From Siphonodentalium dalli (taxonomy: Eukaryota; Mollusca; Scaphopoda; Gadilida; Siphonodentaliidae): DNA of 64,000 bases. This document shows positions 19,070 to 64,000 of this stretch, one piece after another. The stretch is from NCBI GenBank assembly GCA_032622095.1, contig CP136065.1, forward strand, positions 19,704,134 to 19,768,133. Reading direction: 5' to 3'. Numbering within the stretch: the first letter of the stretch is position 1; each line of letters begins with the position of its first letter. The notes under the pieces were generated by a model. It did not search any database. It saw only the letters and a list, made by a program, of their open reading frames with translations, and was not told the DNA's origin. A program made the position numbers and the translations under genes.

Positions 19070-19071
19070 TA

Positions 19072-21497: not shown

Positions 21498-21644
21498 GGT
21501 AGAGTTGCCACATGTCTACCAGTTTGCCTTTAAGAAGCAAATATCTGCGAAATGGAAACAGGATACGGCACTGAGCAGCGATTTCATTGTGCCGTGTATA
21601 GCAGCAGTAAAGCCGGCGAAAAGCTGGCTACATTTGTGATCGAT

Positions 21645-21648
21645 TTAA
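21645..21648. other. Unoccupied TTAA target site (paralogue of the MITE site at 14545)
   Basis: GTGATCGAT-TTAA-AAAGCTGG here is uninterrupted; in copy 1 the same sequence is split at TTAA by the 392-bp element. Confidence 0.93.
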
Positions 21649-21684
21649 AAAGCTGGCTACGAATGTGACCGGAGCCTTGTGACA

Positions 21685-22179: not shown

Positions 22180-22289
22180 AGTAATATTCAACCAAACTGC
22201 ATGGTTGCATCCTATACATGTATATAAATGTATATAAGGTGGTTTTCATTTTAAAGTATTAAGAGGCAATTATATATATATACTAGAAG

Positions 22290-24420
22290 GTGAACCGACT
22301 TCGTCCGGGCTATTCAAAAACCAAATTTCAAGTCGATAGCTCCACCGTTTCCGAGATCTGGTCTGCGCATGCGCGAAGCTGGTGTCGCATGGGCTCGGCG
22401 ACCAGATAAAATTCGTATCCGGGGCAAGATACATTCACATACCAAATTTCAAGTCGATAGCTCCACCCGTTTTCGAGATATATAGCCCAATGTCATTTGC
22501 GGATACCTCGGCCGGTGATGAGTTAACGCGACATCGGCCGGTTAAGAGTTAACGCGATCACGTCACGATATGTTGATGGCGTAATATATTTACGCAATGT
22601 TTTTCGATGAGCGAAGCATGGTCCTGCGTTCTTCCCGATAATTAAGGTAGAAACTTTAAACGTACACAGGCGTGTGATACATCATTGGAAAGATGAAGCG
22701 CCACAGATTCTAACCGTGCAAATTATATGACTGGCAATTTAGTATTCGCGCTATATCGAATCGATTTGTGAGCACCGAACTGAAATATATTAGCGCAAAA
22801 CGGCGTAAAAACAGATTTGACCTCGGCACGTGAAAAGTTGACGTCGGATCTGAAAATCAATAGGCCTATGTTACTCCTGACCCGAAAATACCCCCACATA
22901 CCAAGTTTCATCGAAATCGGGTCGGCCGTTTTCGAGTTCATCGATTACACACACACACACACACAGATACACACACACACACACACAGATCTTTCAAAAT
23001 ATATAATAGACTAGAAGGTGACCCGACTTCGTCCGGGCTTTGACCTTGAATTGGCCATTTTGAAGGTCAAGGTCAAGTGGGGTCACGATTTGACCAGTCC
23101 AAAAACACTGCCCGGACAAAAGTACCCGAAAAACGTGCCCGTCGAAATCCATCCGGTTTTACTCGATTTGACCTTGAATTGATCATTTTGAAGGTCAAGG
23201 TCTGGTCGGGGTCACGATTGGACCCGTCCAAAACAATCAGTGGACAAAGGTAACCCCACGTATGAAATTTCGTCGAAATCCCATCAAAATTGGCGATTTG
23301 ACCTTGAAGTTACCCGATTTCAAGGTCACGTCGCACGGGCAAATGAATATACTTATGAGATTCGTCATAAGAAAGTACCCCCACATACCAAGTTTCATCG
23401 AAATCCCGTGATATTCGGGCGTTTGACCTTGAAATGACCCGATTTCAAGGTCAAGGTGACGTCGCACGGACAAATTAATATGCCTATGTTCGTCCCCGGC
23501 CGAAAATACCCCCACATACCAAGTTTCATCGAAATCGGGTCGGCCGTTTTCGAGTTCATCGCGAACACACAGACACACACACACACACAGATCTTCCAAA
23601 ATATATAATAGATAATTCCTGAACCAGTACGTCTATCCGGGCTTTGACCTTGAATTGGCCATTTTGAAGGTCAAGGTCAATTGGGGTCACGATTTGACCA
23701 GTCCAAAAACACTGCCCGGACAAAAGTACCCGACAAACGTGCCCGTCGAAATCCATCCGTTTTTACCCGATTTGACCTTGAATTGATCATTTTGAAGGTC
23801 AAGGTCTGGTCGGGGTCACGATTGGACCCGTCCAAAACAATCAGTGGATAAAAGTAACCCCACGTATCAAATTTCGTCGAAATCCCATCAAAATTGGCGA
23901 TTTGACCTTGAAGTTACCCGATTGCAAGGTCAAGGTCACGTCGCACGGCAAATGAATATGCTTAAGAGACTCGCCATAAGAAAGTACCCCCCACATACCA
24001 AGTTTCATCGAAATCCCGTGATATTCGGGCGTTCACGTCGCACGGACAAATTAATATGCCTATGTTCGTCCCCGGCCGAAAATACCCCCACATACCAAGT
24101 TTTATCGAAATCGGCTGGGCCATTTTCGAGTCCATCGATTACACACACACACACAGACAGATACACACACAGATCTTTCAAAATATATAATAGATTATAC
24201 TAGCAGATCTAGCAGGTGACCCGACTTCGTCCGGGCTTTGACCTTGAATTTACCATTTTGAAGGTCAAGGTCAGGTCGGAGTGACGATTTGACCCGTCCA
24301 AAATACTCCCCGGACAAAATCAGCCGTAGGTATCAAATTTCGTCGAAATCCGTCCAGCAGTTTTCCCGGCCATATAGCTAACAGACAGAAGTCCCAAACT
24401 ATATATTAGATCATTTGTGG
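22290..24420 (+). repeat. Array of ~590-bp dispersed repeats ending in (AC)n AGATCTTTCAAAATAT
   Basis: Two nearly full units (about 23010-23613 and 23614-24193) are flanked by partial ones. Each unit starts near CGACTTCGTCCGGGCT and contains TGACCTTGAA/TCAAGGTCA pairs. Phrases such as CATACCAAGTTTCATCGAAA follow, and the unit ends in an AC microsatellite and AAAATATATAATAGA. The ending resembles 3' tails of some invertebrate retrotransposons, but no coding part is present, so the parent is unassigned. Confidence 0.85.
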
Positions 24421-41800: not shown

Positions 41801-44800
41801 TATCATCTTTATGATCTTATCGCATTGGATTCATTTTGCGTCGGCATTTTGTCCCGTTGTTTACCGGTGATCGCAGTTCCTTCCTCAAATATTCAACGTT
41901 ATTGGGACATTATTGACTCTAATTACAGTTATTTTGAAAGTATATACTCAAATTGTATGTATTTCAGTATAATTTCACTAAAAAAACGAAAACCGAACCG
42001 AAACCGAGGTTTTTTCTCCCAAAAAAAACGAAACCTAACGTAAAAAATCAAAACCGCCCATCTCTAGTTTGGGGGTAAAAATTTGATTCGAGGTACCCAC
42101 CAATCATAGCTCAGAGTTATTAGATTTCGATTTTTGAAATCTATATTTTTCACCATCGAGACTTATTAGTGGCCCAGTAAAAAGTCGACGAGCCAAATGT
42201 CTCAGACAAAATTGCGGATGAAGATGGATAACTCTAAAATCAAGAGGTTTGTGTGTTGATAATAAGGCAAAATTTCGTTGAACAACATGTACATAAATTA
42301 CACGTTTCGGGCAATTTTATACTGTAGTTTACAGTGGTTAGCATTATTTTTGGGCAATTAATCGATTCTGATAACTGAAGCGGCATTTCTAAAAAATGTT
42401 GTTGTTGGAATCGGATTATATGGGGACCATCGAATCGGATTGAGTATCTTTAAAATGAGTACAAAGTACCATAATAGAGACCCATACCGCTTATGGGAAA
42501 TGGAGACATGGACACACTCTATCAGAGACGATCATTGGAATTTTTGCTCGCCGAACGTATTAAAACTCCCTCTTTTGAATGTTAATATATGACTAGTAAA
42601 ACCTTCTATTATTGGGCTCATGTGTATAATCTTAATTATTTTCTGGTATTGAAAATGTACCAATGATGGTTTTATGATGTAAAATTGGATAGAACATCTT
42701 TATACTGTGATATATAATTTCCACAAGGGTATTCATGGTTTCTGCAGAATATCTACACCTAAATGGGCAGGTCTCGTTTGGTTTATGGTTTCTGCGTAGT
42801 TTCAGCTGCTAGGCCAAATCACACTGTTGCCTGTTTTACAGTGGAGGAAAGTCCGTACAGATGATTAATTTCACTGGAAAGTCACTACACGTAAAAACTA
42901 CCGACCCCCAGAAAACAACTGACGAACTTGCCCACAGATCTGGTTACATTTCCTGTGCATGGATAACAAATCTGTGCTTCGCCATTGCTGCATGTTTTTA
43001 GGCTTATGTTGGCCTAATGTACTTTGCACCTCACCAACTGAACCACCTGTGGCCCCCCGGACAGGCCTGGTATAAACATCTGAGAGATCAATATTTGTAT
43101 TACACATCATTGGAAAACATATTCGGACACATTCCATATATCAAAGTATCTAGGTGGGTAGAATATAGGTTGCGTGATGAAAAGATTACTTTCTATGAAT
43201 ATCCATATCTTTAATTTAATTATTTAAGTAGACGTATAGGTTCGAATATCGTATAGATGGTGGTTTGTAGTCAACACCTTTATCACCTATATATTAATAT
43301 TCAAAAAGCTTTCGGCTTTTACTTTCCTTGATTTCATTAATGGTGTCATTTGATATGAATTGTTCTGACTGTTTTCTACGTTGACTCGGTCCCATGTGAT
43401 TTCTTATTCAGGTATTATTGTCGACTTTATATCATATCCTGTTATCAACGCATTCACGTCTGCTGCAGCTATCACCATAGCATTCGGTCAAGTTAAGGTA
43501 CGTAGTTACTCAACGCTAATCACCATTTTTTATTTGATGAAGTCAGTTCAAGTGACATACTTCTTCAAACCTTGCTCAAACATTGGACTGGGCAGTACAG
43601 AGATGAATAAATAATCTTTTAGCCTCAAATTAAGCCTGGTTATTGCTCACTGTTGTCATGTTCCAGGAAAGGTAATAGGTTGATATATGTGACCCGCCAT
43701 ATCAAATCCAGTCGGAAGTCGGAATGTTTTTTACCCTATGCCAATGCATTCTCTTATATATGCGAGTCGACCATAGGTCGCGCATATATAAGAGAATGCA
43801 TTGGCCTAACAATTTTTTACAATTTTAATAATTGTTTCTTGTATTCTTTAACAATTTTATAATTTCACCCATACAGAGCCCCAGTCAAACATGAGCAGAC
43901 GACACTCTTCTATATGCTTCTATATATGTGTGGGGCTCCCTGCAGGGTAATGGATGTTTTTTATTTTATGTCCTAAAAATTGTCAGAAACATTTATTTAA
44001 AAAAAATGATAAAAAATTGTTAGGCCAATGCATTCTCTTATATATCTGAGGCGACCTATGGTCGACTCGCATATATAAGAAAATGCATTGGCACAGGGTA
44101 AAAAAATCCCGACTTCCGACTGGGTTTGATATGGCGGGTCACATATACTATTTGTATATTCCTTGAAAAGACTGTTCGAAGTCAAGAAGTGATATAAAAC
44201 TATTAACAATAGAGAGACAAATGCTCTTTATTTTGAGACATCACAACCATTTCGGAAATGATCATTTTCCTATAGGTGACAATTCAATGTATTCTCTTAT
44301 ATATGAGAGGCATCCTATGGGAGACTCGCATATATAAGAGAATGCATTGGCACAGGGTTTTCCTACAATTTCAGGAAGCTCCTGTCATGAAAGGGTTAAT
44401 GCCCATCTCTACAGATACAATAATGATTTAATTAATCGACTCCTTAACCACAGCAGAATTATGGTTAACTTTTCAGGATTTAGTCGGAAATATGGCTTGT
44501 TGCCATTCATTGGAAAGCTCTCGCCGAGAGCTTTCCGATGAATGGCAACAAGCCATATTTCCGACTAAATCCTGAAAAGTTACCCATAATTCTGCTGTGG
44601 TTAAGGAGTCGATTAATTAGAGCATTACTGTAGCTAGTGACAGGTACATTGTTGGTGGACATTGGACACCTTTCACATAATGAACTACTACTGATAAGAA
44701 TTACGAATTGGGTACTACATCACTAGAATTTTTTTTATTTCTATCAGTTATTGTTTTGTCATATCCGTAGTTACAATTACGGCGTCCGGTTTTCAACAAA

Positions 44801-47800: not shown

Positions 47801-50800
47801 ATAATCTCACACAACAGATTAACCACACTCATCAAAATCCCCTATACTGCTCCACACTCATCAAAATCCCCTATACTGCCAACACGATATATCATAATCT
47901 CACTCCTCACTTCCCTTTATCATATCCGACAACCACCTTAGGCCAAATAAAAAAAAGGGTTTTGGTTCTCAGACCCCGCTGCATTGAATAAAAAGGGCCG
48001 CATTAGGGATTTTTATTGCAATGCCTGATGTTATGGCAAAAAAACTTACGAAAAAATAAATTTGAAAAAAATTTATCAACATGTCCATAGCAGATATGTG
48101 TTGAATATTAGTGTGCATTGAGCTCTAACATGTAATGTGTTAAAAAGTGACTTGCAGGCTTACAACATGAAGTAGATGACTACAATTAAGAAAATGATTA
48201 GCTGATCCTCATGCTCTTCTTACAATTAGTCATTGTGAACAACTTACACTAATTGTAACTTTATACAATTGAAAGGCACAGGACTAAATTCAGGATCACA
48301 TATTAGAATGGGCAGGTATCAGTTTTTAGACAACAATAACAGTAGTTAATGTCAGGGGCATTATATATTGTTAGGTAATCCCAGTCATACACTGGTAGTA
48401 CAATGTCATTTTTATATAAGACTAAATGAGTTTATATGCATATAACAGTTCCCTCTACCTTTCTGGTTATTACTAGACAGAGGAAGGTATCTTTGTCCAT
48501 GCTTACTATGCGCAGAAAAAAATATTATTCCCCAGTTGAAGTTGGTGATGTTCACCAGACCTGTTCAGTTTTTAAAATGTCAATCCGGGAGATTTTTGTC
48601 ATAGATATGCCCAAATATGTTCTTGTTTCAAAAATCATTTTTATGAAGATTTATACAGTTTTTAGCTCACCTGAGACGAAGTCTCCGGTGGAGCTATAGT
48701 CATCACTTCTCGTCCATTGTCCGTCCATCCGTCCATCCATCCATCAACAATTCTTTGAACATCTTCTCCAGATCCATAGGACCGAATGGGTTAATATTTG
48801 GTGTGGATGTTCCCTAAATGACTCACATTCAGATTTGTTCAAATGAAGTCACCAGGTCAAATAGTTGCGAAGCTAGGACCATAACTCTTTCCCACAATAT
48901 TAGTTCTTAAAATGACTTCTTCTCAAATTCCATTGGGCCGAATGGGTTCATATTTGGTATGAATGGTCCTTGGGTGACTGGGGTTCAGATTTGTTCAAAT
49001 GAGGTCACTGGGTCAAATGTGGGCGGAGCCAGGGACATAACTAAAAAAGAAAAAGAAAATTCAGATTAAACCCATTGCTTAATTAAAAAATATATATATT
49101 CAGATTGAACTCCTTGCTCAATTTAAAAAAAAAATTACATTTTAAATTAATTTTTTTTTTTATTTATATCAATAATATATTTTTTTTTAGTTAATTATTA
49201 AAGACACAAATATACAAAGAAGCCCATCACCCTTGCCCATTGGTGCTTCTAGCATCCCTGTTATCAAACACTTGTTTTAAATTTATTTCACAGTCACAAT
49301 ACAATACACCATGTGCATATGCTAGAATGCTATCTCTTACAATGAAAGTCAGTAAGGCCAGTCTGCTCTGTTGATAATTATCCACATGTCAAATCTGACA
49401 GCGCAGTATCAACAAGCAGACAGCTCTCTCTAGCCAGAACAGAGAGGTTTTGTTTTGGTAATTAATTTTGAAGTTGAATGTCTAATGTATTCCCAGGAGC
49501 CTTCAGTCTCTACTCATATGAACTATTACTGGTTACAGGTAAAGGAATTTGTTCAAATGGTGGGTCTGTTGAAATAGGTCATTTATACAGTTTTAACACT
49601 TCCTTTCAGTGAATTAATTTCTATCCTATGAATGGTTCTGTAGTTCTGTGTGTACCACCTTTTGTTGATTGAGACTGTTTCTAATGGAGACAGCTTTATA
49701 AGTTTAAGAATCAGCCACTCACTCCAAAAACTTTAACCCCCTCCATAAGACAAACTAATTAATTTGTTGAGTTCAAGTTTGGTACTGATTATAGTTTTAA
49801 GCTCACTTGAGGCCAAGTCTCCGGTGGAGCTACCAGGTATAGTCATCACTCATCGTCCATCCTTCCATCAAAAATTGTTTAAACATCTTCTCCAGACCCA
49901 TAAAACCGAATGGATTCATATTTGGCATGGGTGTTCCCTAGGTGACTCATATTCAGATTTGTTAAAATGAGATCACCAAGTCAAATAGTTGCGAAGCCAG
50001 GGCCATAACTCTTTCCCTCCATAATAATTCTTAGAACAACTTCTTTTCAAGAACCATTGGGCCTATTAAGCTTATATTTGGTATGGAGGGTCCCTGGTTT
50101 ACTGAGGTTCAGATTTATTTAAATTGTGTCACTGTGGCAAACATGAGCAGAGCCAGTGTCAATATCTTTAAAAAAAAAAAATTATTTAGATTTTTAGATT
50201 TAACTCCTTTCTCAATTTAACAAAAAAATATTTTGAAATGAACAAAAAAACATTTAGATTTTACTCCTTGCTCAATTGTTTCAGAATTTTTTTTTTCTTA
50301 TTAAAAAGATAATTTATTACGTTATAACAACGTGCTGACTATTGTAGTCTTCAGAGTCCCAGTCTTCTCTGTCTTTACAGTCTGGTGAGTGACCCCACAT
50401 CATTGACTGTCTTGTTATGTTTATATTTATGTTTATTTTATATATATATAGATCTAAATCAAATGGTAATGAATGTCCTGTTGGAAACTGTAAAAGATCT
50501 GCTGTAATTAAGTGGAAGATACCACCATTTATTGAAGAGAAAGAAGCAGACACTTCGTATAAACTAAGTGAAAATTCTCAGAATTCCACCGGATACAGCT
50601 GGATATGCATGAAATCGAAAGTACAAAATCGGAATAAATTACAAAATGGACTCGTCTTACTGTTTAACACCCAAAAAGAAATGCACACATTCCACAATTT
50701 ATTAACAAAATTTTAAGAAGCAGAAACTTTGTTTAAATAATTGAAAACGAACCCGAGTTACAAAGGTTACAACCGGACATCTATGGGGGAAAACAAAGTA

Positions 50801-53800
50801 CAACATGACCCGTCTTACAGTTTTACCCGCAATGCATACCACTAATCTGTTACTAAGAAATGTTCATCAATGAGGCCTAACAATACAGCTGCACACTTGT
50901 GATTATATGTATTGCATACTATAACAACGCCCTTTATGAGTGGCTTCACTAGGGTGTGAAAATCAATTAATTAATATCAGTCACAGTTCACCACTAATAA
51001 GAGTCTTCAATCAGAGGGAACATCAAAAGTAAATGTTGATGTGTGGGTATTTACGGTACCGGAAATAAGGAAATCCCTGTCATTTGGCGAATCCCCGCAA
51101 TTACTATTATTATTATTATTATATCTTTATTTCCTCCAAAACGATGAAGATTTTTATAAAGAATATAACATATAACACATATTATCTCAAGTTGACAAAA
51201 TACAATAACAATAAAGAACTAACTACATGTATGTACAATTGTGGATATACAATATGCTGATGAAAATGATTATGATGATGTTGACGATGATGGTGATGAT
51301 GATGACAACGATGATGGTGGTGATGTTGAAAATGATGACGAACATGAAGTTCGGTGATAATGACGATGATGATTATGATGATAATGGTGATGATGATGAC
51401 GATGATGATGTTGATGAAGATAATGACGATAATAATGGTGATGATAATGAGGAAGAGGAAGAAGAAGAAGAGGATGATGATGATGACGACGACGATGATG
51501 GTGGTGATGTTGAAAATGATGACGATCATGAAGTTCGGTGACGATGATGATTAAGATGATAATGGTGATGGCGTCGACATCGAAGATAATGTTGGTGATC
51601 ATGATGACGATTATGATGATTGTGCTGGTGACAATTATGAAGATTGTGATGGTGATGATGATAATGATGGCGATGATTATGATGGTGGTGGTGATGCTAA
51701 TGGTGACGGTGGTGATGATGATGTTGATGATGATGGTGGTGACGGTGGTGATGATGATAAACGGCATGATGAGGTAAGTATAGGTGTGTTAATACACCAA
51801 ACATGACATGTAATATATACATATACTTGACGCTCACACAATGACAACGGAAGTGCTCAGAAGCTGCAATATGAGACGTGTCGTACATGTACATTGATGC
51901 ATATATTTCATAAGAAATGTCGACTTTCAAGTGTGCACCCACTTGATAGATTTTGTTTTTCTTTACTTGGCGGTTTCAATGCTTCTTGAAATTAGCTTGG
52001 GGTGTCGTCAGGTTGAATAGTTCTCATTCCGCTCGCATTTGAGAGGGCGTTGAATGATAACCACAGTTGTGCCGTGTAGCTGACTATGTAGTTAAGCAAG
52101 CAATCGATATCATCAACATCATACTGTACTTGGCCAGTAACATTCGTAAGATGAAGGGATATTATATCATCGTCAGTTAGTTCGTCAACGGCAATGAAGC
52201 AAGGTATACCGTATTTGTCGAGTAAGCCAAAGTTTACGGACAATGCATGAAATTTAACAGCTTTGATGTTCACCCATTAGTCACCTCGATTATGCATTTT
52301 ATCTTCTGCAAATTAGGTGATATAGAAACTTCCCAGGAAAAGTAACAAAAAAAAACAATGTTTATTTGATACTATAGATACTTTCCAGAAGATGAGGCCT
52401 AAGCAGAATGAGGTCTCCAGATGGTTAATTTGGTGATGCTAGCCTACTGTGGGATAGCATCACTAAATTCACCCTCTGGGGACCTCATTCTGCAAATGAC
52501 AGACACGCTATTTGCAGGCATGATGGGGGCTCTCAGAGAATATCCAATGAGTTATTTCTCTTTGTTTATAAAGAAATTACTTTTCATCCTTCTGAGCAGA
52601 TGTCTTATCAGATCTCGATGAAATTTGGTAAGGAAGTTGGTCATGCTACCGTTGATGCCAACGTGCCATGTACAGCTATGATTTAATTAATCGACCCTCC
52701 TTAACGATGTTGACGACTGGTATTACCGCGGTACTCAACCACTTTCATGCGATCAACTGCAGTCAATTATACCGCCGCCGACCGCAGTACCACCTCACTA
52801 TCCTGGTTTGACAGTATTCTTCATGCAATGTTTATATGAATTTAAATTTTTTTTTAAGTGGGCATTGTAACCACACCAGAGAATGTGTTTATATCTGGTG
52901 TGTTGTGAGCTGCATTGTAACCACACCAGAGAATGTGTTTATATCTGGTGTGTTGTGAGCTGCATTGTAACCACACCAGAGAATGTGTTTATATCTGGTG
53001 TGGTGTGAGCTGCATTGTAACCACACCAGAGAATGTGTTTATATCTGGTGTGTTGTGAGCTGCATTGTAACCACACCAGAGAATGTGTTTATATCTGGTG
53101 TGTTGTGAGCTGCATTGTAACCACACCAGAGAATGTGTTTATATCTGGTGTGTTGTGAGCTGCATTGTAACCACACCAGAGAATGTGTTTATATCTGGTG
53201 TGGTGTGAGCTGCATTGTAACCACACCAGAGAATGTGTTTATATCTGGTGTGTTGTGAGCTGCATTGTAACCACACCAGAGAATGTGTTTATATCTGGTG
53301 TGGTGTGAGCTGCATTGTAACCACACCAGAGAATGTGTTTATATCTGGTGTGTTGTGAGCTGCATTGTAACCACACCAGAGAATGTGTTTATATCTGGTG
53401 TGTTGTGAGCTGCATTGTAACCACACCAGAGAATGTGTTTATATCTGGTGTGTTGTGAGCTGCATTGTAACCACACCAGAGAATGTGTTTATATCTGGTG
53501 TGGTGTGAGCTGCATTGTAACCACACCAGAGAATGTGTTTATATCTGGTGTGTTGTGAGCTGCATTGTAACCACACCAGAGAATGTGTTTATATCTGGTG
53601 TGGTGTGAGCTGCATTGTAACCACACCAGAGAATGTGTTTATATCTGGTGTGGTGTGAGCTGCATTGTTGATGCAATTGCAATGATGGTCCATGACCAAC
53701 TTTGTATTTTGAATAAACTGTAAACAATTTATTAATTGAAATATGTGCTTAGTTAACATGAAAATAAAGATGCCCCTGATAGTTTAGATATGGTATTTGT

Positions 53801-56800
53801 GAATTAAAAACTTAGTGATTGAAAATGGCGCCGGTCAAATGCTGACATGTTTCAAAATTTCTAGATTTAATTTGCTGTTATTGCGGTCACAAAAATATTA
53901 ATACAGCGGTTACTTACTTGGTCCCCCAGTTAAAAATTATTACCGCAGTAAGACTACTGATGGATTCCGCATTTCAACTGCTATTGTTTGAAGTGATACC
54001 ACATGAATGTGGTTGACTTGCGGTTCGACCATGGTCATTACCGGCCTACAACTGTATTAAAGGGGTCGATTAATTAGAGCATAGCTGTATTTATTTCTTA
54101 AATTAACACATTCCTAACGTGTTGTCAGGAGGTTATGTCATGCTTGTTGTTGAACCTGTCTTCCTTGTTTTTAGGTGCTAATGCTGTGATAGTGCTCTCA
54201 TCTGCTGGGCTTGCCGCTTCGCTCATAGCGATGAACATAAACGATACCTTCACCCTTACTGGGGACATCAAAAAAGGTCTTCCACCATTCCGAGCTCCAT
54301 CATTCAGTCTCACGACATCAAATGTCACCAAATCTGCTGGTCAGATGCTGCAGGTACGGTTACTATGCCGAAAGCATACATGCTTCGCACTGCCTCATAG
54401 CATGTAAATAATTTATATTTGGAAAAACTTAGTTTTCATTTGGCAAAATATTTGGCAAGCACGATCTACATTCCACCATTTCTCATGTACCATGTATTAT
54501 AATGGCTGAGAATAAAGCATTACTTACTTACCACAAAGTTGAAATTGTCAATCAAAGCAAACATGTCATGAAAGCCCAACACAACAGTTCCATATCAGCG
54601 ACTTATGCAAGTTATTATAAGTTAACACCTCTACCAACATGTAGTTAAACCTACTGCACATGCAATTGGAATGGGTATTGTGTATGATGGTGATGTTTAT
54701 ACAACTAATCCCCTTTGGTTATTTGTGGCCATGAGATGTATAGCCCTTCTGTAATTATAGTGGGAGTGACTTGTTTATCGTTTTATGATAATCTACTGGA
54801 GGGACATTGATTATTAACCCTTTCATTATGGGAGCTGTGCTGGAGCATCACTAAAGATCCTGTGGCAGTGCATTCTCTTATATGCGAGTCTTCCATAGGG
54901 AGGATATATAAGCAGACAACAGACTTGACGAAAGATAACACAACTGCTGGAGGACTCAAATTCACTTGTTGGAAATGTTCAGATAACAAGTCATTGGTTG
55001 ATCTTATTATCTGAACATTTCCTGAGGAACTACTCATCAATGAATATTTAGTATAACAAAGGTTAAAATAACTTTGATTATATTTATTATAACTTTGTTA
55101 TATGTTTATAACTTTGATATATATTTATAACTTTGTTATCTATTTGTAAGTTTGATATATATTTATAACTTTGTTATATATTTATAACTTTGTTATATAT
55201 TTATAACTTTGATATATATTTATAACGTTGATATATATTTTCTCATTCCTCAGGAGATCGGAGCTGGCTTCGCTGTTGTTCCCGTACTTGGCTTGGTTGA
55301 ACTCATAGCTATCGGTAATGCATTTGGTGAGTGTCTCCATTCAAAACATGTTTTAGCATTTGCTTGTAATTACATAATTTGAATGGTATTTTTGGTCTAG
55401 TCTGTATATTCTAGACGTAAGGCAATGCAAAGTCAATTTCCCATTTCTCAGGCCAAAAATCTTTGAAAACCATGTACGCGCATTGTATTTAGTTATACTT
55501 TTTATTTCTGGGGCAGTCCCCAATAAGCATTCCACCTCCACATCGGCTATATCTGGGTTTAATTATAAAACTAATGTCAGTAGCCCATGGACATTCATGC
55601 CCAAACAGATGTTCATAAAAATCAGTCTCTTTAAATAGACGACTATAATCCTAATGGATGTACGTCTCTAGAAGTGTCCACTGCACTTCATTTCTACAAC
55701 GACTCGGCATTCCCAACATGATGTAATAAACTGCTTCCAAATATGGAGTGCATTCCTGGCGTAATAAATGTTTGTGAGAATCGTAGTATTTAGAAAAAGT
55801 TATAAATACAACAAGATGCGAAAGAATAATCAGTCACGAATATCGTTGACTGATAAAAACTCGAAGATGATGTGTCCTATATTGCGATGAGTAAAATGAG
55901 TTATGGATATATTGCATGTATTCAGTTTTCCAACAATAGTTGAGTTTGATAATGCGTGGGAAACTTGTCAACACGTCTCTGATCTGTGAAGTGATCCGTT
56001 ATGCCATAAACCAATGAAATCATGCGCGTGCTTCCCCACTCTCCAATGATATGGAGGGAATCCCATCAATTCAGTAGCTGATTATGAATGAGATTTCCAG
56101 AGACAAAAACTTTTGGTCGGCTTTTTAAAGAGACTGCATAAAAGTTATATTATAGATTCTGTGTGTTTATTTCATAAAAAATTACCCAATAAAGTATCAT
56201 TGATCTTCGTTACCAAATACAGTATAAATCAATCATCATTTTGAATTGGGAAATGGGTCTGTTTGATTTCAGTTGTATAAAACCACAAATATCTCATACT
56301 GATTGATAATTTTCCTGTCAGTGTGAACTCGAATAGAAAATTTGCATGCTCAGTGTTTCGGGACCATGCACACGGCCCTGGGGAACGGGAATTTTACTTT
56401 GCGTGGCCCAACACTGAATAATTGTCACCTGAGAAAGGTAATCATATCACTGAATACTTTTATATTTAAAACTGACATCTATATCCTATTATATAATATA
56501 CAGTAATAAACAATGTAACATTATCTACAATTGAAAAGAGGAAGCTATATGTTGAAGATCTATAAAAGTTATCCAGTTGAAAAAATTTCAATATTGTTAC
56601 AATCCTTTGTGACAACTCGTTTTTCAAAACAATCCTATGGCATATATTAAATTTTCATTTTAATTGCTTAGCCATTTTGTGCATAATGTAGTAAATAATA
56701 TATGTATTCTAAATAATGAAATTCATGATATGAGGATGTTTCATCCAAATTTACTATTTCCTATATTTAAGCAAGAAGAAATAATTATAAAATTGATGCG

Positions 56801-59800
56801 ACACAGGAGCTCATAGCTATAGGTCAGTATTCCATCAGCCGTTTTATTTCACTAATATCAGGTAATATTAATAGAAGTCATTAAAGGTCTTATGTGATTG
56901 CATATACAGTAATGCTCTAAATAATCGACTCCTAAACCACAGCAGAATTATGGGTAACTTTTCAGGATTTAGTCGGAAATATGGCTTGTTGCCATTCGTC
57001 GGAAAGCTCTCATTGAGAGCTTTCCGATGAATGGCAACAAGCCATATTTCCGACTAAATCCTGAAAAGTTACCCATAATTCTGCTGTGGTTAAGGAGTCG
57101 ATCACTTAGAGCATTACTGTACATCGGCAAGTGACTTTTATAATCATGTACCATTAGCAATGTTGATCATCAAGTCTGCATATAGTGTGTCTGACTTTTG
57201 CTGAATGAGGTCCCCAGAGGGTGAATTTAGTGACGTTATCCCGTACAGTGGGCTAGCATCACCATATTCACCCCAGACACCTCATACTGCTTAGGCCTCA
57301 ACTGATATGGGAGAACTAGGATCAGATTGAAGTTCCCCAGTTGCAGTTGGTGATGTTCACCCATTAGACACCCCGATTATGCAATTTATTTTCTGAAAAT
57401 TAGGGGATATAGAAACTGAACAGAAGGAAAAGTAACTAAACCAATGTTAATTTGAGACTACAGATACTTCCCAGAAGATGAGGCCTAAGCAGAATGAGGT
57501 TCCCAGAGGATGAATTTGGTGATGCTAGCCCTCTGTGTGGGATAGCATCACTAAATTCACCCTCTGGGGACCTTATTCTGAACATGTCAGACACTATATC
57601 CAGACTTGTTGATCATAACTTGTCAAATGTGAATTAAACAGCTGTTACCATGTCCCTTTCATGACTGGAGCTGCACTGGTGCAGCATTAAAGATCCTGTG
57701 CGATTGCATTCTCTCATATATGCGAGTCTCCCATAGATATTGTTTGGCCAATGTGTTCTCTTATATATGCGAGTCTCCCTATATATAAGAGAATGTATTG
57801 GCACAGAGTTTTCGCAAGAATTCAGGAAGCTTCAGTCATGGAAGGGTTAAAACACATTGCTCCTGTAAGCTTTGTATATAAATATCAAAAGAGTATCAAA
57901 ACATAGCTACAATATTCAAACCGATGTTATCAATACTTTGCACAAAATGATTTTTTTAAATTTATAATTACGATGCATTTGAATTTTTCCAGCCTGTCAT
58001 TATATAAAATATCTGGATTTTTACCAGTTGATTTGAATTAGGTAATAATTCAATTTTCTTAATGGTGATTGCCCATTTCTCTTGTAGGTGCAGCAAACAT
58101 TATTAGTTCATTCGTCTCATCATATCCAGTTACGGGTAGCTTCTCGCGGTAAGCATTTAACCATAACTGATTACTTACTTATATATAGTTCTGTTCATCC
58201 ATGAAAGGGATAACAGAAGTAAGAAAGGGCAGAGGTGTAGGGCTGCAATGATACGGTTTTCCATGATACAATACGTATCATGATATGTTCCACTGCAGAA
58301 ATTTAGAAAGGCAAGATACAAATGGCAACATATAAATGTAAGGACCGATTGGAATATTCAATAGAGAAATTGTTTATGTGGTCTCTGCAGTCTTATATTA
58401 TACTGGTAGTACAGAAATTAAAATTGATCCCTTAAATGTTATGCCCATAGCTGCATCAATATTGAAATCACCCAATTAATTCCCTGAAATATAATGACCT
58501 ATATATATGGCCTTGAATATCTATGCGTATTGCAGAAACAGGTCAGTTCTTGTTAAAATACAAATTAATAGATTGCCAGAAATGTTGAGCTGTACAAAAT
58601 AGAAATCTATGCAATGTTTGACTTTCACCTTCAAAATTCCACATTGTTAGTTTCGTTACTGTATCGCGATACACATCACTTGATACGATATGGTGTATCG
58701 TGTATAAGTGTATCGCAATGCATTGAATTCACTATGAATCGTTGCAGTTCTAAAGAGGGGTGAACTATTTTTGGAGGGCACATAAAAATATATACTCAAT
58801 ATAACATGATGAAAAGTATAGAATAGCATAATATTGATAGCTGAGACTTGCCATTATATTAGGAAATAATTTCTCTGTATGATCAGTAAAAATTAAGGAA
58901 ATTGTAAATTTAACTAACCATGCAATGTAGTTCTTGATTCATAAGTTACCAGACATTCAATGACAAAGGTGCCAGATCCCGCAGCAGATAGGTTTCAGCC
59001 CATTGGGATTTCCGAACAAAAACGGGGGAGGAATTTTAAAGAAAATAATATAGTTGATAGGTAAATACCATAATTGATTAGGTAGTACATGTACATATGT
59101 ACTTCAATGTACTGTGCTAGCATTCTGTGTTCTTTTTGTGCTGTGGATGCGAGTATATTTACCCTATATGTCACTGGATAAGTCATCTAGTATTGTAATA
59201 TTGAGTGATATTCAGTTCAGAGAATGGAATAATTGACCAAGGTGACTTGACTTTGAATTTGTCGAAGGGCAACTACACCTCCGTTGCAACCTCCTGTATG
59301 AGAAAAAGGGGAGCAACTGCCCCTGCATGCATCCCTGCTCCGGTGTCCCAGTCCATACATAGGGTTGTCTTGCTTAACTGTTCAGCAATCAGCATTTTGC
59401 TGATGTCAACCACACTCTCATAGCAGTGTCAAAATTATTTTTTTCAAAATGGATCTAGTAATTGTAATATCTGATTTTGGATTATATAAAATGTACCTCT
59501 TTCACCGAATTCATGGAATAGAAATATTATTGAACTCAGATTGTACCGGCCATAGCTTTGAGAATTGGTTAGCAACACTTGCTTCATATTCACACAATAC
59601 TAAGGACACATGGTAAAGCCATAATTACAAACTACTGATTTGCAAACTTGATTTCTTAATACATCTTTAGTACTTTTTTTATTTTCAGAACTGCTGTTAA
59701 CTCACAAAGTGAAGTTAAAACACCAGCATCAGGAATATTCACAGGTATTTTTGTGCACAGACAGAATGTATTTCACTAATAAAGTGTCATTAAACCCTTC

Positions 59801-62544
59801 GAATTAGATTCTCGCTGATGGGTAGTTACTTCATACCCATTCTTTTATTTAAGGGGGTAATTTGGGTAATATGGGTAATTAGCTCAATAAACCAACTCAG
59901 GCTTTTTGTTGATAAAATGAAGAATGAGATTCCATAGATTGTTTCTGTGTATGTCGTCTGCTTTCATGTGACCATTCCAATGTATTCTTTCATAACTGAA
60001 TCCTAGATGACACACTAATGGCTGAGAATTATATCACTATGTGCTGATACCACATACTTTATACTGATACCACATACTTTATACTGATACCACATACTTT
60101 ATACTGATACCACATACTTTATACTGATACCACATACTTTATACTGATACCACATACTTTATACTCATACCACATACTTTATACTCATACCACATACTTT
60201 ATACTCATACCACATACTTTATACTGATACCACATACTTTATACTGATACCACATACTTTATACTCATACCACATACGTTATACTCATACCACATACTTT
60301 ATACTGATACCACATACTTTATACTGATACCACATACTTTATACTCATACCACATACTTTATACTCATACCACATACTTTATACTCATACCACATACTTT
60401 ATACTCATACCACATACTTTATACTCATACCACATACTTTATACTGATACCACATACTTTATACTGGTACCACATACCACATACTTTATACTGATACCAC
60501 ATACTTTATACTGATACCACATACTTTATACTGATACCACATACTTTATACTGATACCACATACTTTATACTGATACCACATACTTTATACTGGTATTGC
60601 TCCTTTAAATCAACCATACTGTATTTCTTTGTAAACTTCATATGTGACCCGCCATATCAAATCCAGTCGTAAGTCGGGATTTTTTTACCCTGTGCCAATG
60701 CATTCTCTTATATATGCAAGTCGACCATAGGTCGCCTCGCATATATAAGAGATTGTAATACGACCCTGCCTAACTATGCTTAAAAGCCATGTCCTGATTG
60801 GCCAGTGGCCCGAGTTACCATGGCTATCTCGTTCCAGTTTTGTGGTACAATTCTACTTTTTCCAATTGTACCACGAAAAATATCGGTTTATTCAGATCGA
60901 CGCACGCGACTTTTCCCGTCTTTTCTAACTCCGCGCAAACGGGGCATCAACGGAGTACACCCGCACCTGTAACCCTTTGAATTTTGCTACATCTTGACAA
61001 TCTTGCGAATTTTCTAGCGATTTGTCGCTTGAAACCAGTTTGGTTGCCAATGAATATGGTCCAAATGATGTTATGGTATATTGATATATGTTACGACCAA
61101 AGAAAGTTACTTAATAAGTATATTAAATGACAAAATAAATCCATGGGGCCGGGCTGTGCATTCGTCGATTCGAATCTCGATCATATTCGTCGATTCGATA
61201 TTTCGGAATCAAGTTGAAAATGAAAGCGTTTGTTCACCAGTACAGAAGGGGGATAAGATCATTTAGATCGCTTTGTGTAAGGAAAATGGTCCATAGTCGA
61301 TGATCATATTCATGTTGTCCCAACAACGTTCAACACAGAAATGACCGCAATTCGTATTTCCTGTACAATTTAAATGAAAGGCACGGGCGCCGCTGAAAAC
61401 ACATCGTTTTTTAGCCAATCACAACGATTATTTTCTAGAAGAGGTGCCTCGAAAAGTCAATGGGGGAATTTCATAACAAGACAAGATTACCGGAGTATTC
61501 CATGCAAATAAATCGAGTACGCCCAATACGAATTACACCACGAAATGTTTTCTCACCTGAGACCGAAAAAGCGCAGTATTTCGTTGACTATTCAGTCGAA
61601 TTGTGACCATAAACTTTCAGTCGTATTACAAAAGAAATAAATACACGGTGTATCGGTGTGTATGGTCAAGTTGTACCACAAAAAACTTATTGTAGGACTC
61701 CGCTACGCGTCGTCCTACAATCAGTTTTTTGTGGTACAACTTGACCATACACACCTCTACACCGTGTATTTATTTCTTAAATGCATTAGCCCAACAATTT
61801 TTTATCATTTTTTTTAAATAAATGTTTCTTACAATTTTTAGGACATAAAATAAAAAACATCCATTACCCTGCAGGGAGCCCCACACATATATAGAAGCAT
61901 ATAGAAGAGTGTCATCTGCTCATGTTTGTCTGGGGCTCTGTATGGGTGAAATTATAAAATTGTTAAAGAATACAAGAAAAAATTATTAAAATTGTAAAAA
62001 ATTGTTAGGCCAATGCATTCTCTTATACATGTATATGCGAGGTATATATAAGAGAATGCATTGGCACAGGGTAAAAATATCCCGACTTACGACTGGATTT
62101 GATATGGCGGGTCACATATAGTGTATCTTGAGCATCATAATTTAAGTTTTGGTTCTGTTATTTAGTTTGTTGCAAGATTGACGATGTCTAGAAAGTAGTT
62201 CTTTGTATAATGATTATACTGAGATTATCTTCAAGGGAGTGTTTTTTTTGCTGTGTTAAAACCATTGTTTTGCTACTTTTTTTCAAGGTGCCTAGTGAAG
62301 TTGGCCATAGCTATGTTATCACAATGGTTGTACTACTTTTTAGAGGTGCCTAATGATGTTGGCCTTAGCTATATTATCATCCTGATTTCACCACTTGTTT
62401 CAGGTTGCCTTGTCATGTTGGCCCTTGCTGTGTTAACACCGGTGTTTTACTACATTCCTCAATCAGCTCTTGGTGCTGTTATTATATCTGCTGTTATGCC
62501 GATGTTTGATTGGAAAATACTCAGGAAAATATGGAGGGTAAACA
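38795..62544 (+). CDS. SLC26A11: SLC26 anion transporter gene, SLC26A11-like, 12 internal exons (both ends missing)
   Basis: Exons at 38795-38897, 40669-40873, 43412-43497, 45106-45185, 46755-46809, 47498-47591, 54175-54353, 55254-55326, 56772-56822, 58088-58148, 59689-59744 and 62404-62544 total 1184 nt. They join with compatible phases and GT/AG borders into one open frame. The protein has the SLC26 signature (GLTVGLTVIPQGLAYA then PPEYGLYSAFMG), TLGPTAIMSL, FISYPVINAFTSAAAITIAF, SSYPVTGSFSRTAVNSQS and FYYIPQSALGAVIISAV, in the order of the family's membrane domain. The family moves sulfate, chloride and other anions across membranes; SLC26A11 is described as a sodium-independent sulfate/anion transporter. 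The first exon(s) and the C-terminal STAS domain are not in view. Family call is strong, subfamily by eye. Confidence 0.9.
38969..39027. repeat. Hairpin, 22-bp stem
   Basis: ATGGTGTGACATTGACAGCTCG pairs with its inverse 15 bp later, with two mismatches. Confidence 0.85.
39055..39430. mobile_element. 376-bp TA-flanked MITE rich in CCGCGG with ~22-bp internal repeats
   Basis: Ends CTGGACAAAACAAGTGTCCA and TGGACACTTGTTTTGTCCAG are inverse repeats, flanked by TA (39053-39054 and 39431-39432). Inside, a ~22-bp unit of type CRCYGCGGCCGAACGGCAAGTA repeats about five times (39140-39240) and recurs further on. GC- and CpG-rich in an AT-rich setting; no coding capacity. Confidence 0.85.
39640..40155. 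mobile_element. ~515-bp long-armed foldback element
   Basis: GATCATGCCATGAATCT, CTGTAGAGATCATATTCCA and AGTACAAAACCTGGGAACTT in the left arm match the inverse of AAGTTCCAGGTTTTGTACTG through TTCATGGCATGATC at 40080-40151. Weaker pairing continues inward (GGGAATATATTTC), giving ~150-190-bp arms. Target duplication not identified. Confidence 0.82.
40669..40873 (+). CDS. SLC26A11: SLC26A11-like exon B
   Basis: Acceptor TTTTTTACAG, donor TTAG|GTGAGC. 205 nt, ends one base into a codon. Encodes YGLYSAFMGCFVYCFLGTAK, DITLGPTAIMSLMTAAFA and ILLTLFTGCIQFLMGILNL: hydrophobic segments of the transporter core with the anion-site helix TLGPTAIMSL. Confidence 0.95.
41020..42066 (+). mobile_element. 1047-bp hAT-like element, target GTTTGGGG
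   Basis: Ends TAGTGATGGGCGGTT and AACCGCCCATCTCTA, flanked by GTTTGGGG at 41012-41019 and 42067-42074. Inner subterminal sequence repeats AACCGA/TCGGTT motifs at both ends. It contains the start of a BED-finger ORF at 41301, so it is a deletion derivative of a coding hAT. Confidence 0.93.
41301..41408 (+). pseudogene. hAT transposase N-terminal remnant (BED zinc finger start)
   Basis: ATG at 41301 reads MAEQNNEQGSTKSLVWSYF then THLTGDDSKKCRCLMS and stops. The VW.YF...KC..C spacing is how a BED zinc finger of a hAT transposase begins. Everything downstream is lost. Confidence 0.7.
43412..43497 (+). CDS. SLC26A11: SLC26A11-like exon C
   Basis: Acceptor TTCTTATTCAG, donor AAG|GTACGT. The first two bases complete a Gly codon. 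Encodes GIIVDFISYPVINAFTSAAA then ITIAFGQVK, a conserved SLC26 membrane segment. Confidence 0.95.
43688..44143. mobile_element. 456-bp TIR element TGTGACCCGCCATATCAAAT (family V, copy 1)
   Basis: TGTGACCCGCCATATCAAAT and its inverse close the element, flanked by TATA or TA on both sides (43684-43687 and 44144-44147). Inside are two CCAATGCATTCTC hairpins like those of the piggyBac-like MITEs and a GGGGCTC-type inverted pair between them. Confidence 0.82.
44280..44397. repeat. CCAATGCATTCTC-type hairpin with TTAACCCTTTCAT-like end
   Basis: ATGTATTCTCTTATATATGA pairs with TATATAAGAGAATGCATTGG. The right end AGCTCCTGTCATGAAAGGGTTAA matches the end of the element at about 57655-57847. Confidence 0.72.
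44412..44630. mobile_element. 219-bp near-perfect foldback, TA-flanked (family P)
   Basis: Arms of ~95-105 bp (TTAATTAATCGACTCCTTAA through GGAAAGCTCTCG and the inverse) are almost identical, leaving hardly any loop. TA at 44410-44411 and 44631-44632. Same family as 36915, 37471 and 56907. Confidence 0.87.
44633..45105 (+). other. Rest of intron C-D
   Basis: No recognisable element or coding sequence. Confidence 0.5.
45106..45185 (+). CDS. SLC26A11: SLC26A11-like exon D
   Basis: Acceptor TTATTTTTCAG, donor ACAAA|GTAAGA. 80 nt ending two bases into a codon. Encodes HILGVSNIPRDFLNAVYYTF then AAIPDT. Confidence 0.92.
45320..45590 (+). repeat. Second copy of the repeat at 40965-42462
   Basis: CCCCTCAATTACTATTTGGG through GGGGACCATCGAATCGGATT, without the hAT insertion. 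A middle block present in the first copy is absent. Confidence 0.78.
45822..46341 (+). mobile_element. 520-bp hAT-like element, target CATGTAAT, with BED-finger remnant
   Basis: Ends TAGGGCTGCAATGATTC and GTATCGTTACAGCCCTA, flanked by CATGTAAT at 45814-45821 and 46342-46349. Interior ATG at 46042 reads MSELSDHDKIASFEPTIG and KFKSPVWIHFSF. One frame over follows NTKTNCKLCK, giving W..F...C..C of a BED finger across a frameshift. Confidence 0.93.
46755..46809 (+). CDS. SLC26A11: SLC26A11-like exon E
   Basis: Acceptor CTTCATTTCAG, donor AAAG|GTATGC. First base completes the split codon from exon D. Encodes VWDLILGLSSLILLHFLK, a membrane helix. Its 3' end and donor are duplicated 73 bp downstream. 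Confidence 0.93.
46801..46946 (+). repeat. 73-bp tandem duplication of an exon end and splice donor
   Basis: TTCTTAAAGGTATGCATACC at 46801 recurs as TTCTTAAAGGTATGTATACC at 46874. CAGATTGT, AGTAGTGATATT and TAACTATGTT follow in both units. Confidence 0.9.
46947..47497 (+). other. Rest of intron E-F
   Basis: Nothing recognised. Confidence 0.5.
47498..47591 (+). CDS. SLC26A11: SLC26A11-like exon F
   Basis: Acceptor CCTACTTTACAG, donor AACAG|GTATGT. 94 nt. Encodes KMRTYDWRDPPGYHVTGVQK then AARKIIWFVGT, a loop leading into the next helix. Confidence 0.93.
47592..48658 (+). other. Start of intron F-G
   Basis: Contains a short direct duplication of CCACACTCATCAAAATCCCC (about 47823-47877). No gene or element otherwise. 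Confidence 0.5.
48659..49045 (+). repeat. AGCTCACCTGAG-type repeat (copy 2)
   Basis: TTTTTAGCTCACCTGAGACG, GGTGGAGCTATAGTCATCAC, CCATCCGTCCATCC, then the CAGATTTGTTCAAATG and AGGGACATAACT phrases as at 32255. Confidence 0.85.
49046..49796 (+). other. AT-rich unassigned intronic sequence
   Basis: A/T runs at 49070-49210; nothing else recognised. Confidence 0.5.
49797..50170 (+). repeat. AGCTCACTTGAG-type repeat (copy 3)
   Basis: Same order of phrases as 48659-49045, more diverged. Followed at 50336-50415 by the segment shared with 35010-35110. Confidence 0.82.
50452..50716 (+). other. Protein-like open frame of unknown origin
   Basis: After TATATATATAG the frame reads SNGNECPVGNCKRSAVIKWK then WICMKSKVQNRNKLQNGLVL to a stop at 50714-50716. 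Composition looks coding and an acceptor-like AG precedes it, but there is no family match by eye and no partner exon. It may be an old transposon ORF fragment. Confidence 0.25.
50717..51239 (+). other. Unassigned intronic sequence
   Basis: Only a short ATT run at about 51103-51122 (ATTATTATTATT). Confidence 0.5.
51240..51762. repeat. Imperfect (GAT)n / (GATGAY)n tract, ~520 bp
   Basis: Purine-rich GATGATGAC-type triplets with interspersed GGT and GAA. A ~90-bp segment containing GGTGATGTTGAAAATGATGA recurs (51318 and 51499), so part of it is a larger duplication. Confidence 0.92.
51970..52260 (-). pseudogene. LINE C-terminal fragment, antisense
   Basis: Minus frame reads VNFGLLDKYGIPCFIAVDEL then DDIISLHLTNVTGQ. 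It aligns by eye with the last ~70 residues of the LINE at 1-2206 (MIDRFGIPLFVW..LVLLHLTHL). Its upstream side is cut by a family H fragment. Confidence 0.7.
52261..52526. mobile_element. Family H element, right half only (copy 4)
   Basis: TTCACCCATTAGTCACCTCG through the right hairpin (AATGAGGTCTCCAGATGG and inverse), ending GACAGACACGCTATTTGCAGG. The left half is missing. Confidence 0.75.
52673..54087. mobile_element. ~1.4-kb TA-flanked TIR element containing the 50-bp satellite
   Basis: CAGCTATGATTTAATTAATC at the left and GATTAATTAGAGCATAGCTG at the right, TA on both sides. The TIR resembles family P (ATTAATCGAC.CC). Sequence on both sides of the satellite is rich in ACCGCGGTA/TACCGCAGTA. 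Confidence 0.68.
52860..53670. repeat. 50-bp satellite, ~16 units, each a hairpin
   Basis: Unit: GCATTGTAACCACACCAGAG followed by AATGTGTTTATATCTGGTGT and GTTGTGAGCT. CCACACCAGA pairs with TCTGGTGTGG within every unit. Units differ almost only at one base (TGTTGTG or TGGTGTG). The order is TTG TTTGTG TTTGTG G, so a six-unit (300-bp) block is repeated. Confidence 0.97.
54175..54353 (+). CDS. SLC26A11: SLC26A11-like exon G
   Basis: Acceptor TTGTTTTTAG, donor CAG|GTACGG. 179 nt. First two bases complete Gly. Encodes ANAVIVLSSAGLAASLIAMN, FTLTGDIKKGLPPFRAPSFS and NVTKSAGQMLQ: a helix, then the loop TG.I..GLPP.. typical of SLC26A11-type proteins. Confidence 0.95.
54815..55055. repeat. Degenerate TTAACCCTTTCAT element and hairpin remnant
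   Basis: TTAACCCTTTCATTATGGGAGC at 54815 with a CATTCTCTTATATGCGAGTC piece, then GAAATGTTCAGATAA pairing with TTATCTGAACATTTC (54976-55022). The latter resembles the flank of the hairpin at 28278-28441. Confidence 0.65.
55055..55240. repeat. AT-rich ~19-bp tandem repeat abutting a splice acceptor
   Basis: Units of type TATAACTTTGATATATATT repeated about nine times, ending 14 bp before the exon H acceptor at 55253. Confidence 0.88.
55254..55326 (+). CDS. SLC26A11: SLC26A11-like exon H
   Basis: Acceptor CATTCCTCAG, donor TTTG|GTGAGT. Encodes EIGAGFAVVPVLGLVELIAI then GNAF, the conserved helix before the second repeat's anion-site region. Confidence 0.95.
55327..56771 (+). other. Intron H-I
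   Basis: No element or exon recognised across ~1.4 kb. Confidence 0.5.
56772..56822 (+). CDS. SLC26A11: SLC26A11-like exon I (51 nt)
   Basis: Acceptor CTATATTTAAG, donor ATAG|GTCAGT. Begins and ends inside codons. Encodes ARRNNYKIDATQELIAI. Small, but the NNY.ID..QEL.AIG motif is highly characteristic. Confidence 0.92.
56907..57119. mobile_element. 213-bp near-perfect foldback, TA-flanked (family P)
   Basis: CAGTAATGCTCTAAATAATC through GGAAAGCTCTC, then the inverse arm to GAGCATTACTG. TA at 56905-56906 and 57120-57121. Confidence 0.88.
57171..57608. mobile_element. 438-bp family H element (copy 5), target TTGATCAT
   Basis: CAAGTCTGCATATAGTG and CACTATATCCAGACTTG-like ends, flanked by TTGATCAT at 57163-57170 and 57609-57616. 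Two subterminal hairpins as in 27381-27832. Confidence 0.88.
57650..57848. mobile_element. TTAACCCTTTCAT-type element with CCAATG hairpin core
   Basis: CCCTTTCATGACTGGAGCTGC at the left and AAGCTTCAGTCATGGAAGGG-TTAA at the right are inverse repeats. Inside are CATTCTCTCATATATGCGAG hairpin arms. TTAA is clear on the right side only. Confidence 0.7.
58088..58148 (+). CDS. SLC26A11: SLC26A11-like exon J
   Basis: Acceptor TTTCTCTTGTAG, donor CGCG|GTAAGC. Encodes AANIISSFVSSYPVTGSFS, the strongly conserved SLC26 motif. Confidence 0.95.
58238..58752. mobile_element. 515-bp hAT-like element, diverged 8-bp target
   Basis: Ends TAGGGCTGCAATGAT and ATCGTTGCAGTTCTA. Flanks CAGAGGTG and AAGAGGGG agree at 6 of 8 bases. 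Related to 45822-46341 at the termini but with no BED remnant. Confidence 0.78.
58753..59688 (+). other. Rest of intron J-K
   Basis: No recognised feature. Confidence 0.5.
59689..59744 (+). CDS. SLC26A11: SLC26A11-like exon K
   Basis: Acceptor TTATTTTCAG, donor ACAG|GTATTT. Encodes TAVNSQSEVKTPASGIFT, the segment following the GSF(S/G)R motif in this family. Confidence 0.94.
60041..60595. repeat. 20-bp satellite, ~27 units
   Basis: Unit CTGATACCACATACTTTATA. One base varies (CTGATAC or CTCATAC): G-type units at both ends, C-type clustered at about 60161-60430. One 10-bp irregularity (CTGGTACCACATACCACATA) near 60470. Confidence 0.97.
60754..61631. mobile_element. Insertion with TGTAATACGAC/GTCGTATTACA ends
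   Basis: TTGTAATACGAC at about 60754 and GTCGTATTACAA at about 61620-61631 are inverse. The block contains a TGTGGTACAATT/AATTGTACCAC pair near 60840. No coding family seen; the exact boundary with the following hairpin is unclear. Confidence 0.6.
61633..61777. repeat. 145-bp near-perfect hairpin
   Basis: AGAAATAAATACACGGTGTA through GTACCACAAAAAAC pairs with GTTTTTTGTGGTACAACTTG through TATTTATTTCT. An inner TGTAGGAC/GTCCTACA stem lies at the centre. Confidence 0.9.
62229..62460 (+). repeat. 58-bp tandem array, last unit is the 5' edge of exon L
   Basis: Unit starts at about 62229, 62287, 62345 and 62403, exactly 58 bp apart. Shared elements are a T-rich tract plus AG, GGTGCC/GGTTGCC, ATGTTGGCC, GCTRTRTTA and TACTAC. 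Only the last unit has the frame used by the transporter. Confidence 0.88.
62404..62544 (+). CDS. SLC26A11: SLC26A11-like exon L
   Basis: Acceptor CTTGTTTCAG, donor AACA|GTAAGT. 141 nt. Encodes CLVMLALAVLTPVFYYIPQS, ALGAVIISAVMPMFDWKILR and KIWRVN. FYYIP.SALGAVII is the last membrane part before the STAS domain in SLC26 proteins. The open frame continues past the donor, but that part is intron-like. Confidence 0.95.
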
Positions 62545-62940
62545 GTAAGTGTACTGTCAAAAATATGTTTTTGCTAGATTTTCATTGCGACCTTCACCTC
62601 CATTTAAAAAAACGGAAATCCCCGAAGTCATTCAATCGACAAAAATATACAGTTATCACTCCTGGAACAAAGCCGGATGGGTTGGGTTTAAATGAAAAAG
62701 ATTGCCTTTCTCAGAATTCATGTTCAGAAATAAACTATATTATAAATACTTTGAGTACTGAAGTTTAAGATCGACAGATCCCCTGAATATACTTGTTATT
62801 TTTTCATATGCGTCGACAGAACTATCAGATGGTTACTTTCATCAGTTCCAGAGTAGATTGTTTCTATAGGTCTAACATTCAAATTGATGACAATGCGGAG
62901 CAACTACAATCATGTTCTGTTTTGTTCAAATAAAATATTC
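62545..62940 (+). other. Start of the last visible intron
   Basis: The frame stays open to 62768, but after the donor the sequence (KKRKSPKSFNRQKYT) has no similarity to the expected transporter continuation. Confidence 0.6.
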
Positions 62941-62947
62941 GAAGAAA

Positions 62948-63730
62948 ATGGGGGGTATACTGGATTGACTGCGTCCGTCCGTCGTACCGTCCGTCCGTCA
63001 TGCTTTCTCAGTCCGTGTGTCCGTCCGTCCGTCCATCCGACCTCATAACTCGGAACAACTATGAACCGATTTCAATCATTTTTTATATGCAATCTCCTTG
63101 GGACTGCCTCTCCGCATAATGCTAATTGCGGTTCGGTCTGACTTTATTTTTTTAAGTTACACCTCATTTTCGACTTATTTTGACTTAGAAAATTCTGTCC
63201 GACTTAATAACTTTAACAAATATGAACCGATTTCAATACTTTTTGGTATACATGCTTCTCACAATACCCTCTCTACATGATGCGGCTAGGGATTGGCTCA
63301 GACTGTTTTTCGTAATATTACACTTCATTTTCGACTTATTTTGACTTTGGATGATAATTCAAGTTAGGATGTCCCGATCACCACCAAACATGATATATGT
63401 CTGAATTGGCTTAAAATACAAACCTAGTGCGAATCTGGCTTAGAATTAATTTGTTTTTTTTTGTTTCTTCGAATATGGGTTCAAAAGCCATCTTAGATGT
63501 TAAGGTTACGTATCATTTTCTACCCTTTTTTGGGGTTTCTGCAATCATTCGAACAAATATGAACCAATTTGAATAATTTTTTCTGTACAAGCTTCTTGTG
63601 ACACCATATCGATATTATTAGTCCGAATTTTTCTTTAAAGTTAAAAATCTTTTTTGTTGGGTTTACGGATAATGCGGGTTGAATTTGCCACGGTGGGGGT
63701 ATGCTAGCACACGAGTGCACACCTCTTGTT
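62948..63730 (+). repeat. CCGTCCGT-type repeat with ~190-bp internal units
   Basis: Starts GGGGGGTATACTGGATTGAC, then (CCGT)n. Diverged units each contain AACAAATATGAACCGATTTC and TTCGACTTATTTTGACTT, ending CACGGTGGGGGTATGCTAGC. Distinct from the AGCTCACCTGAG family but similar in layout. Confidence 0.8.
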
Positions 63731-64000
63731 AATTTTGTGTTGTTGGTGCAAAATAGTGGATTATGTGTTGGTGCTTGTGCTCTCGTTCACTCATTTCGAC
63801 GAAATGACTCTTTGAATTTGTTCCGAGCGAAATCGATTCAGTCAACTTCACAATTAATGTTGATCAGTATGAAGTCAGGTTGTTTGATGTGTGAATTTTG
63901 CCGACAGACCTATCATTGAATACACAATATCAGTTTCAACCTTTGAAGTGATGTATTTTTAGCATCGGTGAAGTGGTGATCGGAAAATCAAAGACAACCT
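63731..64000. other. Unassigned right edge
   Basis: No exon of the transporter recognised before the window ends. Confidence 0.5.

Follow-up and report, generated by a model that had tools for sequence, protein, structure and literature searches.

Alternative 3' splice sites present several AGs before one exon, some of them in frame. The intron-exon border described here likewise has multiple AGs, seen in this case in sequence alone. It lies in a stretch of 64,000 nucleotides from the scaphopod Siphonodentalium dalli (GCA_032622095.1, contig CP136065.1, positions 19,704,134 to 19,768,133; hereafter the window, numbered from its first base), within what looks like a gene for an SLC26A11-like animal sulfate/anion transporter. 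Over its final ~170 bases the intron between exons K and L of this gene (the exon letters are those of an initial annotation of the window) consists of tandem copies, now diverged, of the ~50 bases with which exon L begins. Intron ends built or shifted by tandem duplication have been described for the potato RdRp gene, for vertebrate ATP2A1 and for cases in fission yeast (PMC4974935, PMC3629103). The process of tandem duplication at intron ends is already known, and the array is a fresh example in which the 3' end of an existing intron has been extended.

As in the potato gene (PMC4974935), the tandem duplication would take in an existing intron-exon border, and the copies would therefore inherit a T-rich tract and a 3' splice site. 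The potato duplication gave a new intron, a short new exonic piece and near-identical copies, whereas the copies here are ~72-74% alike and it is the 3' end of an existing intron which moved or grew. The locus also resembles a known intron with 24-nt units, whose end consists of several tandem exonic copies, each unit having its own proto-splice site. That intron was gained at a new position and expressed sequence tags exist for it, whereas the units here are ~58-60 nt long and are known only from the genomic letters. No direct precedent, either for duplicated acceptors or for SLC26A11 with bivalves, was found in the literature listings, which is not proof of absence.

When the window was compared with itself, the strongest self-match of the array paired 62250-62379 with 62310-62438 (74.0% over 131 columns, E 1.8e-16), and self-comparison of 62151-62600 gave 105/146 identities with 3 gap columns. 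Tandem Repeats Finder reported 62281-62423 with a period of 58 and 2.4 copies. Alignment of the 240 nt 5' of exon L with exon L itself scored 25, a value reached by 0/2000 shuffles and by 0/258 other 240-nt pieces of the window; these are adjoining copies of one segment beyond chance. The same upstream test on four other exons of the gene, with the 51-nt exon at 56772 left out, gave scores of 7-9, within their own shuffles. Besides the array no further copy of exon L was found in the window at E<=1e-3, and among viral contigs 15 pattern matches yielded 0 confirmed relatives. The tandem duplication of the exon edge proposed in the initial annotation, together with the homology of the upstream units on which it depended, is borne out by these alignments.

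The strict register of four 58-bp units, with starts at 62229, 62287, 62345 and 62403, fared less well. The units are tandem relatives of the exon edge, but in this register a good match is confined to units 2 and 3 (44/58); all other pairs match at 14-20/58, with unit 1 at 18-20/58 against the others and unit 4 at 14-15/58 against units 2 and 3. The register therefore requires single-base shifts, and the unit spacings are about 60, 58 and 59. Each unit holds ~50 nt of exon and AG/G stands at 62287, 62345 and 62403 (also at 62235), with the first part of unit 1 eroded; this unit matches exon L at 27/32 over 32 columns. In its homologous frame, unit 3 is interrupted by a stop. The coordinates are collected in Table 1.

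Table 1. Positions in the window of the exons, array units and candidate acceptor at the intron K-L/exon L border.
Feature	Coordinates	Strand	Remarks
Exon K, 56 nt	59689..59744	+	Phase 1 end ..ACAG/gtattt; gap-free joined alignment to 9iar_B
Unit 1, oldest-looking, partly eroded	62236..62287	+	Clear homology from about 62248-62250; AG at 62235 in front
Unit 2, exon-edge copy	62288..62345	+	Strong acceptor-like AG at 62287 in front, immediate stop
Unit 3, exon-edge copy	62346..62403	+	Contains the AG of the apparently used acceptor; CTGAT (A at 62385) as candidate branch motif
In-frame acceptor-like AG of the initial annotation	62342..62343	+	Score 3.03, rank 11/92; +60 nt, open
Exon L, 141 nt	62404..62544	+	Unit 4, the copy that survives in function, makes up its first ~50 bases; donor AACA/gtaagt

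The explanation that we consider likely is an old tandem duplication across the intron-exon border, of which the last acceptor is used and the upstream copies are decaying. A segment of ~58-60 bp across the intron K-L/exon L border would have undergone repeated tandem duplication; it probably comprised ~10 bases from the T-rich tail of the intron, AG included, and ~50 bases of exon. The normal protein would now come from the acceptor before the last copy (62403), while the upstream copies would have turned into intron and then drifted. Decoy acceptors would be left over, fairly strong and with an immediate stop at 62287, weak and in frame at 62343 and 62235, and the intron tail would probably hold spare splice sites without function. 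We infer both this order of events and the neutrality of the copies. In every unit the ~50 exon-like bases are followed by 9-11 T-rich ones with AG at the end, and these linkers, compared over just 9-11 bases each, match the intron tail before unit 1 at 9/11, 5/9 and 5/9 positions versus 4/11, 3/9 and 4/9 for the exon bases that follow. A unit which spans the border and carries the acceptor along would be the simplest reading, the alternative being an all-exonic unit.

The gene was identified by a frame-by-frame search of 50001-64000 against solved structures, which returned three SLC26A11-like protein pieces, exon L among them, and no SLC26 match in the remaining two reading frames. Small exons between the pieces were placed by eye and by motif search. 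The six joined exons (54175-54353, 55254-55326, 56772-56822, 58088-58148, K and L) have AG and GT at their borders and form a single open frame of 186 residues. This protein aligned gap-free over 182/186 residues with 9iar_B, a sodium-independent sulfate anion transporter (1.1e-60, 207.7 bits), and the runner-up chain was a plant sulfate transporter (4.9e-30). The top solved match is SLC26A11, with the binding-site region aligned, and the assignment covers only the part encoded by the six exons (54175-62544).

Intron K-L is 2.66 kb long. Its 92 AGs were scored with a generic acceptor matrix, which gives no proof either way: 62403 scored 6.39 (rank 3/92), the acceptor-like AG at 62287 scored 5.65 (rank 5/92), 62345 scored 1.64 (rank 21/92) and 62235 scored 0.29 (rank 27/92), and 9.57 and 8.44 were obtained for the exon J and exon K acceptors. 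The highest score (10.7) fell on an unrelated AG at 61874, and the matrix alone therefore decides nothing. The homologue of the exon-edge AG is at 62345 (GAG), and splicing to it shifts the frame and runs into a stop; the TAG at 62343 has no such homology to the duplicated border AG. Only three strict YTNAY motifs occur in 62181-62403 (A at 62353, 62385 and 62390), the CTGAT motif lying 18 nt 5' of 62403, and none was found upstream of 62343 within the scanned 62181-62343. An uninterrupted family alignment was given by the 62403 acceptor only. With 62343 the joined reading matched 9iar_B at 179.8 bits with a 20-residue gap, 28 bits below the 62403 version, and no insertion was seen at the K-L junction in the alignments to 9iar_B, 7lhv_A and 7v73_A. 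The acceptor in use thus appears to be 62403.

The initial annotation had singled out AG 62342-62343 as an open extra acceptor. Its use would, as stated there, extend exon L by exactly 60 nt, keep phase with exon K and rejoin exon L in frame without a stop, encoding EVPNDVGLSYIIILISPLVS. The open stretch extends further than given there: from 62223 up to and including exon L the gene frame has no stop, and the AGs at 62223, 62235, 62295, 62310 and 62343 are therefore all in phase and open. The extension peptide is unit 3 read outside the frame of exon L and is therefore not a copied membrane segment. We think it unlikely that 62343 works as an alternative acceptor whose product carries an additional 20 residues where the helix after the substrate-binding half helix begins. 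The phase, the lack of stops, the T-rich tract and the AG all fit such a site, and since the end of the insert (PLVSG) resembles the start of the native stretch (human GLVTG) the helix might persist with a longer loop. However, its score is middling, it has no strict branch motif upstream, the better competitor 56 nt upstream (62287) leads to a stop, and three relatives (the chains named above) lack an insertion there. When the 60 nt were shuffled all 20 codons stayed open in 1900/5000 cases, and an equal in-frame open AG 20-200 nt upstream was present at 1633/20000 random anchors in the window (8%); by this count and its rank of 11/92, 62343 is neither stronger nor rarer than chance. The 20-residue insertion said to have been created by the duplication is open and in phase, but an isoform made via 62343, although possible, is here indistinguishable from chance.

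The insertion had also been placed just before a membrane segment. In the SLC26 fold half helix TM10, which precedes the stretch at the junction, helps to bind substrate (PMC13408680, PMC8298490). Borders of TM11 were not found in the passages searched of PMC13408680, PMC6656431 and PMC8298490 (as helix 11, in the last of these only), and the position of the junction relative to the helix is therefore taken from hydropathy. By this measure the K-L junction does coincide with the beginning of the most hydrophobic stretch: the peak of the normal protein, a 19-residue window (IFTGCLVMLALAVLTPVFY, 2.17; windows moved in steps of three), starts three residues before the junction. With the 20 extra residues the peak shifts to ILISPLVSGCLVMLALAVL (2.57), and the insert would therefore lengthen the loop and renew or re-register the start of the helix; it would add no clear additional helix.

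The AG at 62286-62287 adds 116 nt and reads GA and then a stop, in agreement with the initial annotation. This site might act as a regulatory poison acceptor, diverting some of the transcripts into decay, a role suggested by its immediate stop and by a score close to that of the used site (5.65 vs 6.39). The same appearance would be expected of an acceptor copy in decay, however, and the scores come from a generic matrix; we regard this role as unlikely.

Between units 2 and 3 there are, in the exon frame, ~12.5 nonsynonymous and ~0.5 synonymous changes, as would be expected in the lack of coding constraint. Coding constraint on the copies was also considered from their differences to exon L and rejected: the ratio of nonsynonymous to synonymous divergence (pN/pS) was 0.67 for unit 2 and 0.75 for unit 3, with 19% and 27% of neutral simulations at or below these values. 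Amino-acid identity to exon L was 9/20 for unit 2 and 10/20 for unit 3, reached by 45% and 8.7% of simulations.

Several points count against the old duplication with decaying copies. The linker comparison which favours a border-spanning unit is a short one. The main result against purely neutral copies is the combination of a second-position deficit with a long open frame. Mismatches to exon L by codon position are 8/4/8 in unit 2 (20 total) and 11/2/9 in unit 3 (22 total), and such low second-position counts were matched in 10% and 0.1% of neutral simulations, respectively, so that the deficit reaches significance in unit 3 alone. This hints at past constraint, and the deficit could be a trace of former translation of the copies or a product of common T-rich composition. 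Between AG 62235 and exon L all 56 codons are open in the gene frame, as in only 169/5000 shuffles; in neutral-decay simulations starting from three open copies 11-21% remained open. These two results also bear on the idea that the first copy retains the original acceptor, 62235, with a protein longer by 56 residues made now or formerly. The 168 nt that it adds are in phase and second-position changes are few in unit 3, but the low score of this AG and the lack of a synonymous excess between units 2 and 3 make us judge it quite improbable.

It is more improbable still that the entire intron K-L, and not merely its tail, arose from a duplicated exonic segment (Rogers model), as the AG/G at every copy border and the exonic copies at the intron 3' end might suggest. 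Intron gain from a duplicated AGGT exonic segment should leave its mark at both ends, and it was rejected on finding the intron 5' end unlike exon L, with 8/24 anchored matches, a count equalled by 1893/3884 GT sites of the window, and a local score reached in 405/500 shuffles.

Other repeats occur in the window. Within intron K-L, 60044-60593 is a tandem array of 27 copies of a 20-base unit. A reverse-orientation copy of 43684-44034 (92.6% over 351 columns), probably a mobile element, occupies 61780-62120 and ends ~110 bases before the exon-edge array. Near-perfect 223-base palindromes at 56902-57124 and 44413-44635 match each other at 93.7-94.0% and are foldback-element-like. A minisatellite at 52862-53668 repeats a 50-base unit 16.1 times (98% matches) and has long open stretches in three frames, and 7990-15625 and 15750-22311 form a large tandem segmental duplication (98.5% identity over 4719 columns, 97.0% over 1215 and 96.4% over 685).

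The case would matter more only if the spare acceptors were used in transcripts. A live splicing switch, with poison 62287 set against productive 62403 and the in-frame 62343 and 62235 letting longer transporters through, seems to us unlikely; if true, a tandem duplication would have been recruited to control the dosage and the isoforms of an anion transporter. On the favoured explanation, an old duplication with decaying copies, the locus would be a readable case in which splicing to the last copy has neutralised a tandem duplication spanning an intron-exon border, with decoy acceptors left behind, and it carries the caution that in-frame AGs in such remnants need not mean isoforms.

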